From NCBI RefSeq assembly GCF_003086795.1, contig NZ_CP026003.1, positions 2,252,777-2,316,776 of the forward strand: DNA of 64,000 nucleotides, given 5' to 3'. The notes under the pieces are model-generated. The model searched no databases. It had not been told where the DNA came from and saw only the letters and a program-made list of their open reading frames with translations. The number at the start of each line of letters is the position of its first letter. Position 1 is the first letter of the stretch. A program made the position numbers and the translations under genes. Shown in pieces: positions 39,826 to 46,086 of the stretch. The stretch comes from Stenotrophomonas sp. SAU14A_NAIMI4_5. Lineage in GTDB: Bacteria; Pseudomonadota; Gammaproteobacteria; Xanthomonadales; Xanthomonadaceae.

Positions 39826-40394
39826 GCAGCCCTCCTGTTGGCTAACGTCTGAGTTAAGCCCCGTCAGATGCATTGGCTTAAACGGATTGTCAGATCTCAA
39901 TCCAATCCCTCGAATTGTGCGGATTGAACAGTAGGATTTTGGCCCAGCCATCTTGGCACGGCAATTGAACGCCACCTATCCAACAGACGATCCGTGGATA
40001 TGGCGAGACTTCCCCTTGACGCATCTCGATCTTAGGGCGGCGGGCTCCGGCTAACAAGCTGGTGTATGCGCGGGTATCGCGGCCCGCCCGTTCCTCCTAA
40101 CGCAGATGGGCACATGTCCGTTTTCGGGGCGTCCGGTTCCCTCCCCTGATGACACTTCCTTTGTCACTTTTGTTGCGCACAGCGAAGTCGGATTGAAGCG
40201 CCCCAACTTCAGTACCAACCCAAACATGGCTGTCGCTTCTGCCCCGCGCGCGGGCGTGGCGGCTTGAGCTGGGTTGAATCTTACGCAAGGCCACCAACGC
40301 CGCCGGAACCTAGCTGCATCAACGTCTCACCGCCATTACGCCGTATGCAACGATTCTGAAAATGTCGACAACGGTGACGGCATCGCCCCTAATG
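39826..40394. other. Gene-poor region between the accessory genes and the first cassette
   Basis: Nearly 570 bases without a supportable gene. Short frames lack ribosome sites and protein-like composition. The last 100 bases (GCCGTATGCAACGATTCTGAAA around 40340) resemble the sequence at the same distance before the second cassette (near 44330) and may hold a shared promoter. Confidence 0.5.
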
Positions 40395-40427
40395 CCTTGG
40401 CATGGCGCTCAACCGGGCGTAATCCTA

Positions 40428-40635
40428 GCCGGGCCACCGAAAAAGGGTGGCCGGGCTTCGAAACCCCGGTAGTTCGCTGAAGTAAACGCTTGCCAGCCGG
40501 CATCACCCTGTGTGGTGCCGGCTGGCAATCCGTCGGCCGGCTATGGCGGGCGGTGCGTGGAGGCCTTGTGCCTGCCGGTTTAGCGAACACCGGGTTTCGA
40601 ACCACGCATCGTCCGCCACCTCTATCCGGTGGCGG
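40428..40635 (+). ncRNA. Structured RNA upstream of the 118-aa protein gene (copy 1)
   Basis: A long-range stem of 19 pairs joins 40457-40477 to 40583-40601. Inside it is a 17-bp hairpin at 40490-40528 (TTGCCAGCCGGCATCAC/GTGGTGCCGGCTGGCAA, loop CCTGT) and a GGCGGGC/GCCTGCC pairing. A hairpin lies on either side: 40428-40456 (GCCGGGCCACC/GGTGGCCGGGC) and 40613-40635 (CCGCCACC/GGTGGCGG). Compared with copy 2, five pairs of the long stem change on both sides and still pair. It ends 28 bases before the ATG of the next gene. It may be a leader, a cis-regulator or a separate RNA; no known family was recognised. Confidence 0.75.
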
Positions 40636-40663
40636 CTTCTGCCTGCACGTTAGGAGCCACGCC

Positions 40664-41020
40664 ATGACCAAGCCCTACTCCCCTGCCCCCACGCCCATCC
40701 AGGAAGCGCCCTCTTCCGCGCCGCGCCTGGACCCCAACAGCCTTATCGCCATTCTGCACGGCATCGGTGCCGGTGCGGCGTCCGATGGCCAGCCTTGGCC
40801 CGAGCGCAACCTGCTGCGTGGCCGGCAGATGGCCCTTGCCGATGCCGATTGCGCCTTGGCGGGCCAGCGCGTCATCCACGAGATCCTGCTGGCGGCCGAG
40901 CGCGCCCGCCAGAATGGCGACCCGGACCAGTACGTGGGCGATCGGGTGATGGAGGGTCTGGCCATGGCCTGCCTTGCCCTGACGGTCTTCATCCAGGAAC
41001 GTGTGCGGCCGGCGGCTTGA
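40664..41020 (+). CDS. 118-residue helical protein of the RNA cassette (copy 1)
   Basis: TAGGAG lies ahead of the ATG. Residues 1-25 are proline-rich (YSPAPTPIQEAPSSAPRLDP). The rest is predicted helical (LIAILHGIGAGAASDG, ALADADCALAGQRVIHEILL, DRVMEGLAMACLALTVFIQE). No signal peptide or enzymatic motif. It differs from copy 2 by one residue (Met to Ile) although the genes differ at 22 sites, 21 of them silent, so the protein is under strong constraint. The layout loosely recalls small DUF3077/DUF6124 proteins of Pseudomonas; this is a recollection, not a search result. Confidence 0.82.
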   Translation: MTKPYSPAPTPIQEAPSSAPRLDPNSLIAILHGIGAGAASDGQPWPERNLLRGRQMALADADCALAGQRVIHEILLAAERARQNGDPDQYVGDRVMEGLAMACLALTVFIQERVRPAA

Positions 41021-41021
41021 C

Positions 41022-41408
41022 GTGGCCGATCGCAAATTCTGGAGCAGTCGAGCGAGCTCGACTCTACTTGGTGTCGCGCTGTTGCTGACTTCGATGTTGG
41101 TTGAGGCTGGACCTGCGCCCGCGCAGGTTCAGACCTTCGAGGTGCTGCAGCCGCGGCAGTTTGAGATTCTGCGGAGCTACGCGCAGGCATTCGTCGATGC
41201 CAAAGAGCGGGCGGGATTCGCGCTGGATGCGAGCGAGGCGCCAGGCGCTTGGTTCCATGTCCGTTACCAGGGGCGCGCGGTGATGGCGGTGGAGAACACG
41301 TCGGCGGGGCTGGTGATCAGCATGCCGGTGGGTGTGGATCTGCTGGCGCCGGATGTCCTGCAGCTGCGGGATGAGTTCCGGCTTTGGTTGGAGTATGGCG
41401 AACGCTGA
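41022..41408 (+). CDS. Small exported protein starting inside a SMAG element (copy 1)
   Basis: A 128-residue frame starting at a GTG one base past the preceding stop. Codons 9-15 (SRASST) are written by the SMAG element at 41046-41067. The hydrophobic LLGVALLLTSMLVEAG then acts as a signal peptide. The mature part reads FEVLQPRQFEILRSYAQAF and LISMPVGVDLLAPDVLQLRDEF-like repeats of helix. It differs from copy 2 at 22 residues. No known domain. An ATG at 41092 would give a shorter, non-exported form. Confidence 0.65.
   Translation: MADRKFWSSRASSTLLGVALLLTSMLVEAGPAPAQVQTFEVLQPRQFEILRSYAQAFVDAKERAGFALDASEAPGAWFHVRYQGRAVMAVENTSAGLVISMPVGVDLLAPDVLQLRDEFRLWLEYGER
41046..41067. repeat. SMAG element inside a coding region
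   Basis: AGTCGAGC-GA-GCTCGACT-CTAC, the monomer form of the SMAG stem-loop with its CTAC (GTAG inverse) end. It encodes part of the N-terminus of the overlapping exported protein. Confidence 0.85.
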
Positions 41409-41421
41409 CGGGCCGACGAGT

Positions 41422-41443
41422 AGTCGAGCAAGCTCGACTCTAC
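41422..41443. repeat. SMAG element
   Basis: AGTCGAGC-AA-GCTCGACT-CTAC, 13 bases past the stop of the small exported protein. It is followed by a short stretch whose complement reads SLQEPAK-stop, as at the end of the gene at 46117-46818. Confidence 0.85.
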
Positions 41444-41511
41444 TTTGCGGGCTCCTGTAGGGAGGGATCTGGTGGCTGGTCCGCGCCGATTGGTGCCGCT
41501 AAGCTTCGCTA

Positions 41512-42156
41512 ATGATGATTCTGGTACGACATGCGGAAAGTGCGGCCAATGCGGGCCTGCGCACCAATAGCCCGGATGGCATTGCCCTGACAGACCTGGG
41601 GGTTCGGCAGGCTGAGGACCTTGCAGAAAGCTGGACCGGCCGGCCGGCGGCGATTGTGAGCTCCCCTTTTGTGCGTGCCAGGCAAACGGCGGAGCCACTC
41701 GCCCGCCGCTTTGGCATGCCGATAGGCACGGCTTCCGTGCAGGAGTTCACCTATCTATCGCCGCCGAAGTGCATGGGTACGACGGCCGCTTCCCGGCGTT
41801 CGTGGGTACTGGCGTATTGGGATCTCAGTGACCCTGACCACCGCGACGGTCCTGGCGCAGAAACCTTCCGGGAGTTTGTTGATAGGGCCAGGTGCTTGCT
41901 GGCTGATGCAACGTGGCGCGACCGTGGAGAGGTCGTTATCTTCTGCCATGGCCAGTTCATGCAGATGGTGCGCTGGCTCCAGGAGCATCCAGCGAGACCG
42001 GTGGATTCCGAGGCAATGCGCCACTTCAGAACTGTGGATCTGAAGCAGCCAATTGAGCATTGTCAGCAGTATCGGATCTGCGCCAGAGACGGCCACCTGC
42101 CCAGGCCTCGAGAGCGGCCCTCAGTCCATTCGCCCGATTTCAGGAATTCCAGATAG
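41512..42156 (+). CDS. Histidine phosphatase family protein (copy 1, altered C-terminus)
   Basis: A 214-residue phosphoglycerate-mutase-like phosphatase: the phosphohistidine motif LVRHAES at residues 4-10, an Arg in SSPFVRARQTAEPL, and the second catalytic His in VIFCHGQFMQM near residue 146. It acts through a phospho-His intermediate; the substrate is unknown. Up to residue 190 it matches copy 2 (about 10 changes). After QYRICA it diverges and gains a 23-residue basic tail, where the repeat ends. Confidence 0.85.
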   Translation: MMILVRHAESAANAGLRTNSPDGIALTDLGVRQAEDLAESWTGRPAAIVSSPFVRARQTAEPLARRFGMPIGTASVQEFTYLSPPKCMGTTAASRRSWVLAYWDLSDPDHRDGPGAETFREFVDRARCLLADATWRDRGEVVIFCHGQFMQMVRWLQEHPARPVDSEAMRHFRTVDLKQPIEHCQQYRICARDGHLPRPRERPSVHSPDFRNSR

Positions 42157-42219
42157 ACTCGCCTTGGGCTTCGGCCGCCGCCCAGGAAAGAAGGCAGCCC
42201 TCAGACCAGGAACGTCGCC

Positions 42220-43248
42220 ATGCGCTCACCCACCTCGCCGGTGCTCAGCCTCTCCATCACCTTGATCACGCTTGCTGGCTGGGCCGGTACCGCCCATGCC
42301 GGTCCGTCCCTGGGCTCGGCCGAGTACGCCGAACGCAACTTCATCCAGGAGCAGGTGGATGCCCTGCTACGCGATGAGGATTTCGATACGCTGGAAGCCT
42401 TGGCCAAGCGGTATCGCCGTTCCGGTGAGACCACAACCAGCGGGACGCCGAAGCTGACGCATTTTTACGACGGCTTTTCCAATCTGTACGAAGCAGAGAA
42501 GATTCCCGTGGGGCAGGATGACCCGGCGCGCGATCGGCTCACGCGCTGGGTGAAGAGGTACCCGCGGTCCCCCACCCCTCACCTGGCCCTGGCCAGCGCC
42601 TTGCTCGGCCGTGGCATGGCCTACCGTGGCTACGGCTATTCCAGCACGGTCAGCCCACAGGATTCTGCCCAGTTCCACGATTACACTGAAGCCGCCAGCG
42701 CCGTCCTGAAGGATTGCAGGAAGCAGTGCGCGAGCGACCCGAACTGGTACGCGCGGTCAGCTTTTGCGGGCATGCTGCTGGGTTGGGACGCCACTGACAT
42801 GCTGGCCGTGGTCGATGAGGGCATGGCCAGATACCCCGGCTACGTCAGCATTCCGTTCCAGGCTGCGCAGTATTTCTCGCCCAAGTGGGGTGGTACGCCC
42901 TATGCCGTGGAATCAACGGCGAGGCGCGCCCTCGAGACGGTGCCGGAGCGCGAGCGCCCTGCCCTGTATGCGCGCATCTACTGGTCCACGGCGGGGGGCT
43001 TCTACAAGAGCCCGTTTGCGGAAAAGCAGGTGGACTGGCCACTGATGAGCCAGGGTATCGACGATGTGCTGGCCACGTACCCTTCTGACTGGAATCTGCA
43101 GAACTTTGCCTACTTCGCGTGCCAGGCCAAGGACAAAGCCAAGACGCGCACCCTGATGGACCAGATCAAGCAGTCCATTGAAACGAATGTTTGGTGGGAG
43201 GATGAGGCATACTACGCCTGCTGGCGGTGGTCGCACGAGGCTTCGTGA
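42220..43248 (+). CDS. Exported DUF4034-like protein
   Basis: A 342-residue protein with a signal peptide ending at AHA (residue 27). Helical throughout, with DALLRDEDFDTLEALAKRYR near residue 47, WVKRYPRSPTPHLALASAL and a later WYARSAFAGMLLGWD, giving a TPR-like solenoid of the DUF4034 type. It sits between the two RNA cassettes and is not repeated. Function unknown. Confidence 0.72.
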   Translation: MRSPTSPVLSLSITLITLAGWAGTAHAGPSLGSAEYAERNFIQEQVDALLRDEDFDTLEALAKRYRRSGETTTSGTPKLTHFYDGFSNLYEAEKIPVGQDDPARDRLTRWVKRYPRSPTPHLALASALLGRGMAYRGYGYSSTVSPQDSAQFHDYTEAASAVLKDCRKQCASDPNWYARSAFAGMLLGWDATDMLAVVDEGMARYPGYVSIPFQAAQYFSPKWGGTPYAVESTARRALETVPERERPALYARIYWSTAGGFYKSPFAEKQVDWPLMSQGIDDVLATYPSDWNLQNFAYFACQAKDKAKTRTLMDQIKQSIETNVWWEDEAYYACWRWSHEAS

Positions 43249-43361
43249 GGGGCGCGTGGTTGGACGCTTGATCACGGCCGGTTCGAAGGTGCCCCTGTGG
43301 CGCTGCGAAGCGTCAACGTTCTTGATTGCGTACCCTCAAGCCGAACGTGCGTAGCGATGGG

Positions 43362-43976
43362 CTAGAAGTCCTCTTGTTCGTCTAGGAGGACGGGGCTCTG
43401 GGTGTTTGCGGAAGGCTGCCCGCCAACGTACACGTCCTCTTCTCGCAATCCCAAGACGTCTACCCACAGTGAGCGGGCAGCGCTGGCAATGCTGCCCTCA
43501 ATGCCCTTGAAAATGGAAGCGGCGTCTACGGCGTCCTGCGATCGGGCTCTATATGCACTGGTAAACGAAACCTCACCAGTGAAGTGAAGGACGAATATTG
43601 CATTGACGTCTGCGCTTTCAAGGAGAAACGTGGGCGTGGACAGATCATGCAGACGGATATGAGCGGGAGGCGAACTGGGCTCGTCACGCGACAACGCTAC
43701 GTCGACCCACTTCGCTTTGATACCCAAGTAGAGACGGTCGATCGTCCCAATTACAAGATGGCCATGGGTTGTAATGAAATCGATTTTTGCCTGGCCAATG
43801 AGTTCTCGTTTACCCACCATCACCAGCGCATTTGCCAAGGATGCTTCGCGCGTAATTGCATCGAAGGGATTGGCGTCATTCTGCTCAAGAACTGCAGCGG
43901 GCAAGATGACTTCATAAGCATCAAGGAACAAATGAAGCCTGCTCCTGTTGAGGCTGATCTTCGCCGTTGGCCGCAT
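43362..43976 (-). CDS. Protein of unknown function
   Basis: A 204-residue protein starting MRPTAKISLNRSRLHLFLDA. It appears alpha/beta, with no signal peptide, membrane helix or cysteine, and an acidic end (LLDEQEDF). Codon use is less GC-biased than in neighbouring core genes, suggesting acquisition. No family recognised. An upstream part may be missing, since the next 440 bases hold only fragments. Confidence 0.6.
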   Translation of the reverse strand: MRPTAKISLNRSRLHLFLDAYEVILPAAVLEQNDANPFDAITREASLANALVMVGKRELIGQAKIDFITTHGHLVIGTIDRLYLGIKAKWVDVALSRDEPSSPPAHIRLHDLSTPTFLLESADVNAIFVLHFTGEVSFTSAYRARSQDAVDAASIFKGIEGSIASAARSLWVDVLGLREEDVYVGGQPSANTQSPVLLDEQEDF

Positions 43977-44387
43977 ATGGTGCTCCTTTCAAATCCATGG
44001 CTGACGAATATGCCGCGATGACAGGAGAAGTCGCAAGTCATGCTTCTGCGACCCTGCTTGGCAGGGCGGGGGGGGGGGGCGCCGGAGTACAAGCACACTC
44101 TCGCAGCTCCAGCCTTACTTCGTCGCCTGTATGGAAGGCGTTCCACATGCACGCCAGCCATCGTTGGCCGGCCGCTGCACGCGGGTGTGTAGGCCTTGAA
44201 AGGTCACCTCCATCGAATTCGGTGTCGGTTTCGCCGCGTTCTCAATGCTGTGTAGCTGGTCTTTTAGTAGCGCGGACGCCGCCGCTTCAATGCCCTCAAG
44301 GGCCCGTGGCGCAGGCATCTCGCAACATCTTGCCGCTATGCGACAATTCCGAAAGCGACGCGGGAGTTGGCGGATTTGACCACGCCC
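43977..44387. other. Gene-poor region with a 12-G tract
   Basis: About 410 bases between the preceding gene and the second cassette. It holds an uninterrupted run of 12 Gs at 44068-44079 and a short minus-strand frame (44115-44213). A long plus-strand frame crosses it and joins the 118-aa gene, but it runs through the G tract and the structured RNA and lacks a ribosome site. Confidence 0.5.
44115..44213 (-). CDS. Short frame sharing the F-x-GLH-x-RVQ motif
   Basis: A 32-codon frame encoding MEVTFQGLHTRVQRPANDG and a short tail. Its VTFQGLHTRVQ resembles LTFHGLHSRVQ in the N-terminus of the membrane protein at 46117-46818, at DNA level as well. It has no clear ribosome site and may be a gene remnant; a longer in-frame version runs upstream into the second cassette. 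Confidence 0.3.
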   Translation of the reverse strand: MEVTFQGLHTRVQRPANDGWRACGTPSIQATK

Positions 44388-44420
44388 CCTTGGCATCGCG
44401 CACAACCGGGCGTAATCCTA

Positions 44421-44631
44421 GCCACGCCACCAAAAACGGGTGGTCGGGGCCTCGAAATCCCCGGTTGTGCAATTGTGAAAAGCGCTTGCCAGCCGGCATC
44501 ACTCTACGTGGTGCCGGCTGGCAATCCGTCGGCCGGCTATGGCGGGCGGTGCGTGGAGGCCTTGTGCCTGCCGGTCTGATTGCACACCGGATTTCGAGCC
44601 ACGCATCGTCCGCCACCTTTATCGGTGGCGG
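44421..44631 (+). ncRNA. Structured RNA upstream of the 118-aa protein gene (copy 2)
   Basis: Same fold as copy 1. The long stem joins 44451-44473 to 44579-44598 with 20 pairs and small bulges. The inner 17-bp hairpin is at 44486-44524 with a changed loop (TCTAC). The 3' hairpin CCGCCACC/GGTGGCGG is at 44610-44631. The 5' hairpin is weaker than in copy 1. Relative to copy 1 the changes in the long stem are T-A to C-G, C-G to T-A, T-A to G-C, G-C to A-T and C-G to A-T, all keeping pairing. Confidence 0.75.
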
Positions 44632-44659
44632 CTTCTGCCTGCACGTTAGGAGCCACGCC

Positions 44660-45016
44660 ATGACCAAGCCCTACTCCCCTGCCCCCACGCCCATCCAGGA
44701 AGCGCCCTCTTCCGCGCCCCGCCTGGACCCCAACAGCCTTATCGCCATCCTGCACGGCATCGGCGCCGGTGCCGCATCTGATGGCCAGCCCTGGCCCGAG
44801 CGAAACCTGCTGCGTGGTCGGCAGATTGCCCTGGCCGATGCTGACTGCGCCTTGGCGGGCCAGCGGGTCATCCACGAGATCCTGCTGGCGGCCGAGCGCG
44901 CCCGCCAGAATGGCGACCCGGACCAGTACGTGGGTGACCGGGTGATGGAAGGCCTGGCGATGGCCTGCCTGGCACTGACGGTCTTCATCCAGGAACGCGT
45001 GCGGCCGGCGGCTTGA
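44660..45016 (+). CDS. 118-residue helical protein of the RNA cassette (copy 2)
   Basis: Same length and ribosome site (TAGGAG) as copy 1. Only the residue after RGRQ differs (Ile for Met). The contrast with the freely changing neighbour genes in the same repeat points to this protein, with the RNA, as the conserved core of the cassette. No catalytic motif is visible; the helices could mediate RNA or protein binding. Confidence 0.82.
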   Translation: MTKPYSPAPTPIQEAPSSAPRLDPNSLIAILHGIGAGAASDGQPWPERNLLRGRQIALADADCALAGQRVIHEILLAAERARQNGDPDQYVGDRVMEGLAMACLALTVFIQERVRPAA

Positions 45017-45017
45017 C

Positions 45018-45404
45018 GTGGCTGTTCGCAAATTCTGGAGCAGTCGAGCGAGCTCGACTCTGCTTGGGATCGCGCTGCTGCTGCCTTCGATGTCGGTTGA
45101 GGCTGGACCTGCGCCCGCGCAGGTTCAGACCTTTGAGGTGCTGCAGCCGCGGCAGTTCGCGATTCTGCGTAGCCACGCGCAGGCATTCGTTAGCGCCAAG
45201 GAGTATGCGGGGTTTGCGTTGGACACGGGTGAGGTGCCAGACGCCTGGTTCCATATCCGTTACCAGGGCCAGGCGGCGATGGCGGTGGAGAACACGCCGG
45301 CGGGGTTGGTGATCAGCGTGCCGGCGGGTGTGGACCTGCTGGCGCCGGATGTCCTGTGGCTGCGGGATGAGTTCCGGATCTGGCTGGAGCATGATGAACG
45401 CTGA
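45018..45404 (+). CDS. Small exported protein starting inside a SMAG element (copy 2)
   Basis: 128 residues, GTG start, same layout as copy 1: SMAG-encoded SRASST at codons 9-15, then signal peptide LLGIALLLPSMSVEAG, then FEVLQPRQFAILRSHAQAF. It differs from copy 1 at 22 positions, mostly in the mature domain. Function unknown. Confidence 0.65.
   Translation: MAVRKFWSSRASSTLLGIALLLPSMSVEAGPAPAQVQTFEVLQPRQFAILRSHAQAFVSAKEYAGFALDTGEVPDAWFHIRYQGQAAMAVENTPAGLVISVPAGVDLLAPDVLWLRDEFRIWLEHDER
45042..45063. repeat. SMAG element inside a coding region, end mutated
   Basis: AGTCGAGC-GA-GCTCGACT-CTGC. The usual CTAC end has become CTGC, while the stem and the reading frame are intact. Confidence 0.8.
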
Positions 45405-45417
45405 CGGGCCGACGCGT

Positions 45418-45439
45418 AGTCGAGCAAGCTCGACTCTAC
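45418..45439. repeat. SMAG element
   Basis: AGTCGAGC-AA-GCTCGACT-CTAC at the same place as in copy 1. On the complement, a SLQEPAK-stop remnant directly precedes it, ending on the TAG supplied by the element. Confidence 0.85.
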
Positions 45440-45507
45440 TTAGCGGGCTCCTGTAGGGAGGCATCTGGTGGTTGGTCCGCGCTGCGTGGTACCGCTAAGC
45501 TTCTGAA

Positions 45508-46086
45508 ATGATGATTCTGGTACGACATGCGGAAAGTGCGGCCAATGCGGGCCTGCCCACCAATAGCCCGGATGGCATTGCCCTGACATACCTGGGGGTT
45601 CGGCAGGCAGAGGACCTTGCAGAAAACTGGACCGGCCGGCCGGCGGCGATTGTGAGCTCCCCTTTTGTGCGTGCCAGGCAAACGGCGGAGCCACTCGCCC
45701 GCCGGTTTGGCATACCGATAGACACGGCTTCCGTGCAGGAGTTCACCTACCTATCGCCGCCGAAGTGCGTGGGTACGACGGCGGCCTCCAGGCGTTCGTG
45801 GGTACTGGCGTATTGGGATCTCAGTGACCCTGACCACCGCGACGGTCCTGGAGCAGAAACCTTCCGGGAGTTTGTTGAAAGGGCCAGGCGCTTGCTGGCA
45901 GATGCAACGTGGCGCGACCGTGGAGAGGTCGTTGTCTTCTGCCATGGCCAGTTCATCCAGATGGTGCGCTGGCTCCAGGAGCATCCAGCTCGACCGGTGG
46001 ATTCCGAGGCAATGCGCCACTTCAGAACAGTGGATCTGAAGCAGCCAATTGAGCACTGCCAGCAGTATCGGATCTGCGCTGGCTGA
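45508..46086 (+). CDS. Histidine phosphatase family protein (copy 2)
   Basis: A 192-residue phosphatase with LVRHAES, SSPFVRARQTAEPL and VVFCHGQFIQM, ending QYRICAG. This is the normal length for the family and probably the ancestral form of the copy at 41512. Substrate unknown. The stop is 12 bases before another SMAG element. Confidence 0.87.
   Translation: MMILVRHAESAANAGLPTNSPDGIALTYLGVRQAEDLAENWTGRPAAIVSSPFVRARQTAEPLARRFGIPIDTASVQEFTYLSPPKCVGTTAASRRSWVLAYWDLSDPDHRDGPGAETFREFVERARRLLADATWRDRGEVVVFCHGQFIQMVRWLQEHPARPVDSEAMRHFRTVDLKQPIEHCQQYRICAG

Follow-up and report, generated by a model that had tools for sequence, protein, structure and literature searches.

The window, a stretch of 64,000 nucleotides of contig NZ_CP026003.1 of Stenotrophomonas sp. 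SAU14A_NAIMI4_5 (positions 2,252,777 to 2,316,776), contains two copies of a unit composed of a structured RNA leader and a gene for a 118 amino acid protein of a Stenotrophomonas family that is uncharacterised. In each leader the 3' half matches the Rfam C4 antisense RNA (RF01695) over the full model, with 61.7 bits in copy 1 and 58.6 bits in copy 2 (cut-off 45), and the GG of the C4 stem P1, at which RNase P excises the trans-acting C4 of P1 and P7, is present by reading. A long stem of 27 pairs in copy 1 and 25 pairs in copy 2 can be drawn across the leader; its 3' arm is the antisense stretch of C4, formed by the a' loop and the b' strand, and its 5' arm is the target. The conserved gene has a C4 RNA in its leader, and this C4 has a private partner that covaries with it at the leader's 5' end; at the ribosome site no partner was found.

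The original prediction described both leaders as one fold that was not recognised as a named RNA family and gave a match to a known Rfam family as one of the outcomes that would refute it. With RF01695 above cut-off in the 3' half of each copy that outcome occurred, and an unnamed RNA family is rejected. The underlying observations were mostly accurate. All five double changes said to preserve pairing in the long stem are present in both copies, the inner 17 base pair hairpin keeps its stem while its loop changes (CCTGT at 40490-40528, TCTAC at 44486-44524), and the RNAs end 28 bases before the small genes (40635 before the ATG at 40664, 44631 before the ATG at 44660). Hairpins on either side are present in copy 1. 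The minimum-energy fold has the long stem only in copy 1; that of copy 2 is C4 in its native form, and here the long stem is seen in the centroid. Compared to shuffled sequences the folding has a z score of -6.8 for copy 1 and -5.1 for copy 2, with none of 200 shuffles as good in either case. The long stem and the native C4 fold use the same bases, for which they compete. Of the static structure first proposed, an RNA pairing under selection and tied to a small gene remains, while the long stem itself is better read as antisense-target pairing in competition with the C4 fold. The two copies are both real, but they are part of a genomic total of 18. Between them identity is 100% for the 5' part of C4, 61% for the arm region and 67% for the loop region.

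Table 1. Features of the two units, in positions of the window.
Feature	Copy 1	Copy 2	Strand	Basis
Promoter-like TTGGCA-17-TAATCC, kept in both copies; directly 5' of H1 in copy 1	40397..40425	44390..44418	+	hypothesis; read from sequence
Hairpin H1	40432..40452		+	fold
Target arm b1a1 (5' strand of long stem)	40452..40481	44445..44474	+	pairs with 40579-40606 (copy 1) and 44578-44603 (copy 2)
17 base pair hairpin H2	40490..40528	44486..44524	+	fold, no T run after it (copy 1)
C4 antisense RNA (RF01695)	40539..40623	44535..44620	+	61.7 and 58.6 bits, model 1-87
Antisense stretch of C4 (a' loop and b' strand)	40579..40606	44578..44603	+	pairing
Hairpin H3 (copy 1: bases shared with 3' strand of C4 stem P1)	40616..40634	44612..44629	+	fold
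Ribosome site AGGAG	40652..40656	44648..44652	+	read from sequence
118 amino acid gene, one uncharacterised Stenotrophomonas family	40664..41020	44660..45016	+	
Long-stem double change 1	T40457-A40601	C44451-G44598		
Long-stem double change 2	C40465-G40594	T44458-A44591		
Long-stem double change 3	T40474-A40586	G44469-C44583		
Long-stem double change 4	G40476-C40584	A44471-T44581		
Long-stem double change 5	C40477-G40583	A44472-T44580		

Pairing of C4 loops with their own arms

The analysis of the pairing is based on 85 units, a set from which L032 and L034, located on short contigs, were excluded. Five phage-type units (L033, L036, L037, L042 and L093) were set apart by reading, which leaves 80 chromosomal-type units. 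Of these, 69 have an arm fitting a strict pattern and were used for the pairing test; the other eleven are L006, L007, L009, L016, L017, L018, L035, L076, L086, L104 and L108, most of whose arms still give strong duplexes. The 69 units carry 52 distinct loops. By pairing energy 43 of the loops find their best partner among the 52 arms in their own arm, and when normalised the other way the own loop is best for 39 of the 52 arms. Summed over the own pairs the energy amounts to -744.7 kcal/mol, whereas 20000 permutations have a mean of -290.7 (standard deviation 17.5) and a minimum of -373.9; this test ignores the relatedness of the units. Of the 18 loops of this genome, 16 pair best with their own arm. 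Loop identity between paralogues of the genome is 0.27 (0.23 when shuffled; 12 loops), while the first 40 bases of C4 have an identity of 0.81. With loops this private, cross-regulation between the paralogues of a genome is not expected, judging by pairing energies.

Further arms were searched for in the genome with a model termed R1. It gave 15 matches with an E-value (E) of at most 0.0064, all at own units, followed by five at E 0.13-0.91. A regulon controlled in trans through further arms was rejected on a weak search with nothing above noise. Of the 25 arms from which R1 was made, ten came from this genome, and R1 missed L009 and L018, an arm subtype which could escape it.

One site, defined by its upstream flank, is common to 20 genomes (single linkage; the downstream flanks grouped only subsets). 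The 19 units with an arm at this site carry 14 distinct loops, some of which differ by a base or two. In the alignment of these 19 units, which leaves out L035, the mean pairwise identity is 0.49 for a1 and 0.60 for the loop, compared to 0.88 for all other columns. The variable helix has changes on both sides in seven of its ten pairs. Over the whole stem 25 cells are changed on both sides (9.9 when shuffled, standard deviation 2.4), and the covariation score is 0.171 (shuffled 0.108); neither value was reached in 500 shuffles. Slid versions of the pairing gave at most 14 such cells and a score of 0.070. Selection on RNA structure, originally proposed from the two window copies, is in this way confirmed by covariation beyond shuffles in orthologous units, and the code at this site has changed repeatedly with compensation. 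At a second site, present in 11 genomes, ten have one and the same loop, so that turnover does not occur at every site.

Downstream target, gene family and distribution

The 5' arm is the only target found in chromosomal-type units. A second target (a2b2) at the ribosome site was considered and rejected, pairing there being at chance by both length and energy. Units of the phage type do have this second target, and most of them also have a T-run terminator separating the arm from C4. The longest downstream complement is 4-7 nucleotides in the 80 chromosomal-type units, with means of about 5 for mononucleotide shuffles, which were used in all tests of the downstream target; in five phage-type Stenotrophomonas units it is 7-10 nucleotides. 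In the 18 units of this genome the energy of the downstream 70 bases with C4 is -21.6 (shuffled -22.6), that of the upstream arm -35.3. The two types also differ in the longest T run between arm and C4, with a mean of 2.7 and a maximum of 5 in the 80 units versus 6 in all five phage-type units. Since the phage-type units were chosen by reading, both contrasts are partly circular, and an independent test is provided by 40 IMG/VR contigs with an exact C4 core, split on the presence of the family protein. The 17 contigs carrying the family gene, possibly as host flanks, have T runs of 2-4 and downstream complements of 4-6 nucleotides; the remaining 23, which include near-duplicates, have T runs of 6-7 and complements of 7-10 nucleotides. 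In other genera, T runs of at least 5 were seen in 17 of 24 C4 loci checked.

The arms of the phage-type units L033, L036, L048 and L050 match the c4-a1b1 family (RF03163) above cut-off at the position of the arm, L059 reaches 40.0 bits (cut-off 46.7), and the Rfam isrK model overlaps the phage-type arms of L048 and L059 above cut-off. The arm of copy 1 has a sub-threshold RF03163 match of 18.6 bits (40420-40472). This is one of four weak matches in the genome, two of which lie on C4 units (copy 1, and L009 with 21.9 bits), and such weak matches are also found in nine of 14 control genomes. Position, layout and pairing make the chromosomal arm a diverged a1b1, but by score it is not a member of the family. 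The best RF03163 match of the genome, again sub-threshold (24.9 bits), lies away from any C4 unit (G000:C1:4176406-4176456).

The proteins encoded downstream have 116-146 amino acids in the loci read, and those of the window have an isoelectric point of 5.6. The two window genes differ by 21 synonymous codons and one non-synonymous codon, from which purifying selection on the protein can be deduced. The window proteins scanned have no match in Pfam, NCBIfam, PHROGs or PADLOC at E ≤ 0.1, and the gene after C4 is not recognised as an antirepressor at this cut-off. None of five proteins matches a defence family, the family profile has no match to solved structures in the PDB at E ≤ 1, and a Pfam search over 34 relatives gave weak matches only, the best being DUF6461 (0.038) in 6 of the 34. 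Homology to DUF6124 or DUF3077 was considered and rejected, as profile comparison detected none. In the window the genes are part of a duplicated block (40664-42156 and 44660-46086) with the unit, an open reading frame of 128-135 amino acids and a histidine phosphatase gene in the same order, the two blocks being separated by unrelated genes. A run of 12 G is located 5' of copy 2 (44068-44079); the length of such a run could vary.

In the genome, a single contig of 4.57 Mb, RF01695 has 18 matches, all above cut-off and all read. In 17 of them C4 precedes an open reading frame of the one protein family by 34-47 bases, a distance that takes the second in-frame ATG for L004 and L008. The protein profile detects 19 copies of the family. 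Two family genes are without a C4 match (L156 and L157): the one at 3181642-3181935 keeps what reads as a 3' remnant of C4, the one at 3500167-3500538 has none.

Among 61 sampled Stenotrophomonas genomes C4 is present in 39, in up to 26 copies, and the family protein in 35, all of which have C4; 22 have neither. For this search coordinates cover part of the matches, and the units read are the fetched loci. The four genomes with C4 alone have one copy each, and the two of these that were read (L032 and L042) are of the phage type. Three genomes (G003, G029 and G051) have 20, 19 and 8 C4 matches but only 8, 3 and 1 protein matches, and may carry a diverged or replaced protein after C4.

In a collection of named genomes the close relatives of the family gene belong to Stenotrophomonas in all 35 loci ([Pseudomonas] hibiscicola included). 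Among the best 120 of 263 named protein relatives one bears the name of another genus, Acinetobacter, and comes from a contig of 511 bases. In a Xanthomonadaceae-level sample 4 of 119 genomes have the family protein, three of them Stenotrophomonas and one with a weaker match; C4 is present in 42 of 299 genomes of the phylum. No match to the unit was found in a phage collection (protein and DNA) or a plasmid collection (DNA). One distant homologue of the gene in another genus (L158, genome G371) has a sub-threshold c4-a1b1 match upstream (24.2 bits) and no C4 match at E ≤ 5; by its sequence it may be a target-like leader without its antisense RNA.

Possible modes of action

We favour, with somewhat better than even confidence, the reading that each copy is an autogenous C4 leader which acts via its 5' arm, in a way similar to P4 CI RNA on seqA, with the codes keeping paralogues apart. 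Transcription would start near H1, and the first segment of the transcript would be the target arm b1a1, followed further on by C4, whose a' loop and b' strand are complementary to the arm. C4 would be excised, probably by RNase P as in P1 and P7, and could then act in trans, pairing with the arm whenever the locus makes a new transcript. This pairing would lower expression of the downstream gene, either by premature termination, as P4 CI RNA does on seqA, or by decay of the leader; an action of the former type is the simplest route. Pairing of the arm with its own C4 occurs in cis as well, a competing fold that could hold C4 inactive.

Several observations count against this proposal. In the absence of a2b2 and of a terminator, the route from pairing at the arm to the gene is not visible in the sequence, and a strict scan for promoters and terminators of 40300-41100 (copy 1) found neither, the promoter-like elements of Table 1 having been read by eye, as were similar ones 5' of other units. 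For nine of the 52 loops another arm is the better partner, L083 and L089 pair hardly at all with their own arms, the arm of L034 is mismatched and L035 has none. Only 4 of the 18 arms of this genome have their own loop as the best partner when energies are not normalised, in part because the long loop of L018 pairs with many arms. A measure of further pair types in the 19-row alignment is not above shuffles (18 versus 18.3). Finally, L017 (G000:C1:1149695-1149784) has C4 and a matching upstream arm but no family gene downstream.

The same data could be accounted for by a switch acting in cis only, in which no free C4 acts and the transcript, by choosing between the arm-C4 stem and the native C4 fold, sets its own processing or translation. 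The minimum-energy folds of the two copies, one of each kind, would suit such a switch, as would the R1 search described above, according to which each C4 may see only its own leader. Nevertheless we think a cis-only switch unlikely: a cis stem would need neither the full C4 fold, which is kept above cut-off, nor unlike loops among paralogues, and in Acinetobacter baumannii RNAs of the C4 region accumulate separately (PMC5320573). Activation of the IsrK type, in which a released 5' arm fragment would act in trans to sequester C4 or to open the mRNA, so that the arm is an activator, appears more doubtful still. IsrK, which has been called structurally homologous to P4 seqA RNA, acts in trans as an activator of the gene downstream of it (PMC4825925), and its Rfam model recognises the two phage-type arms mentioned above; IsrK, though, ends at an intrinsic terminator, and the 80 chromosomal units are without a T run at this place.

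A role in immunity, with the chromosomal C4 RNAs repressing matching sites of incoming phages, has a very low probability in our view. Phages do carry C4 units with both a1b1 and a2b2, and two of the 18 C4 (L003 and L018) pair more strongly with a site in one of the 23 phage-type contigs than with their own arm, or three (L003, L007 and L018) when judged by the loop alone. For the other 16 the own arm is better, in a comparison with 23 contigs many of which are alike, and the promiscuous loop is once more that of L018; moreover, in 19 genomes the arm at one site changes along with the loop, something that immunity by itself would not call for. There is, lastly, hardly any room for the earlier view of a structured RNA unrelated to any named family. 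It can appeal to the upstream arm being below the RF03163 cut-off, but this arm sits where phage-type units have c4-a1b1, and for the downstream half, a full-length C4, the view is refuted.

Relation to known C4 systems

The c4 and c4-a1b1 motifs were listed by Weinberg et al. in 2010 (PMC2864571). C4 has been noted at two places in a Xylella genome (PMC12189769) and at one place in Burkholderia (PMC4603805). A literature search for C4, c4-a1b1, RF01695, DUF6124 and DUF3077, whose scope left most subscription journals outside, returned no report of the units described here.

With the C4 of phages P1 and P7 (RF01695) the chromosomal units share the C4 fold above cut-off, the a' loop and b' strand, and a complementary target upstream in the same leader. 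P1 and P7 have a second target at the ribosome site (PMC5320573), which the chromosomal units do not; the gene following C4 in P1/P7 is an antirepressor, here it is a small uncharacterised gene with many paralogues per genome. The c4-a1b1 RNA (RF03163), P4 seqA and IsrK (RF01394) have in common with our units that b1 and a1 come after a 5' hairpin and before C4, and differ in the score (18.6 bits for copy 1, below the RF03163 cut-off of 46.7) and in the terminator after the arm, which is missing here. On P4 seqA the CI RNA acts by pairing at the 5' arm, leading to premature termination of transcription (PMC4825925).

A partial precedent is given by the chromosomal C4-like "Group 1" small RNAs of A. 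baumannii (PMC5320573), which likewise have many copies (21), variable a' loops and an upstream Region 1. Excision of C4, reported for P1/P7, was suggested for A. baumannii in the same work, and Region 1 was thought to be perhaps auxiliary. In contrast to the Stenotrophomonas units, the accessible text of that article describes Region 1 neither as a target of the own loop nor the RNAs as linked to a protein family.

A parallel is present in two genomes of one genus (G344 and G188), taken for Pseudomonas by their best named protein matches, in which 20 C4 loci (L136-L155) were read. Ten downstream proteins, chosen by eye from the 20 loci, were scanned: seven match DUF6124 and one DUF3077 above cut-off, and two match weakly. 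In the genome with 14 loci the loop is best matched to its own downstream site in nine (0 of 20000 permutations) and to its own upstream site in four (8 of 20000 permutations). These are again chromosomal C4 families with differing loops and small uncharacterised proteins downstream. They differ from the Stenotrophomonas units in that a2b2 is kept and is the site best matched to the loop, and the proteins are without detectable similarity to the Stenotrophomonas family.

It is conceivable, though we advance it only tentatively and would not bet on it, that Stenotrophomonas has domesticated self-addressed C4 leaders, as many as about two dozen, which gave up the target at the ribosome site and recognise only their own 5' end. 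Their private code would have been rewritten repeatedly at a fixed site with compensation, making an orthogonal RNA address system for paralogues, and the Pseudomonas-type genomes would hold a counterpart whose target lies on the opposite side. From the units described here C4-type RNAs outside phages gain a definite anatomy of private upstream target, C4 and conserved gene, and uncharacterised protein families (the Stenotrophomonas one, and DUF6124 and DUF3077 in the Pseudomonas type) are tied to likely antisense control. The units also provide naturally occurring antisense-target pairs, many of which have diverged at a single orthologous site, and swaps between them could test how an RNA recognition code evolves. 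If true, this RNA address system would be comparable to the incompatibility groups of plasmid antisense RNAs.

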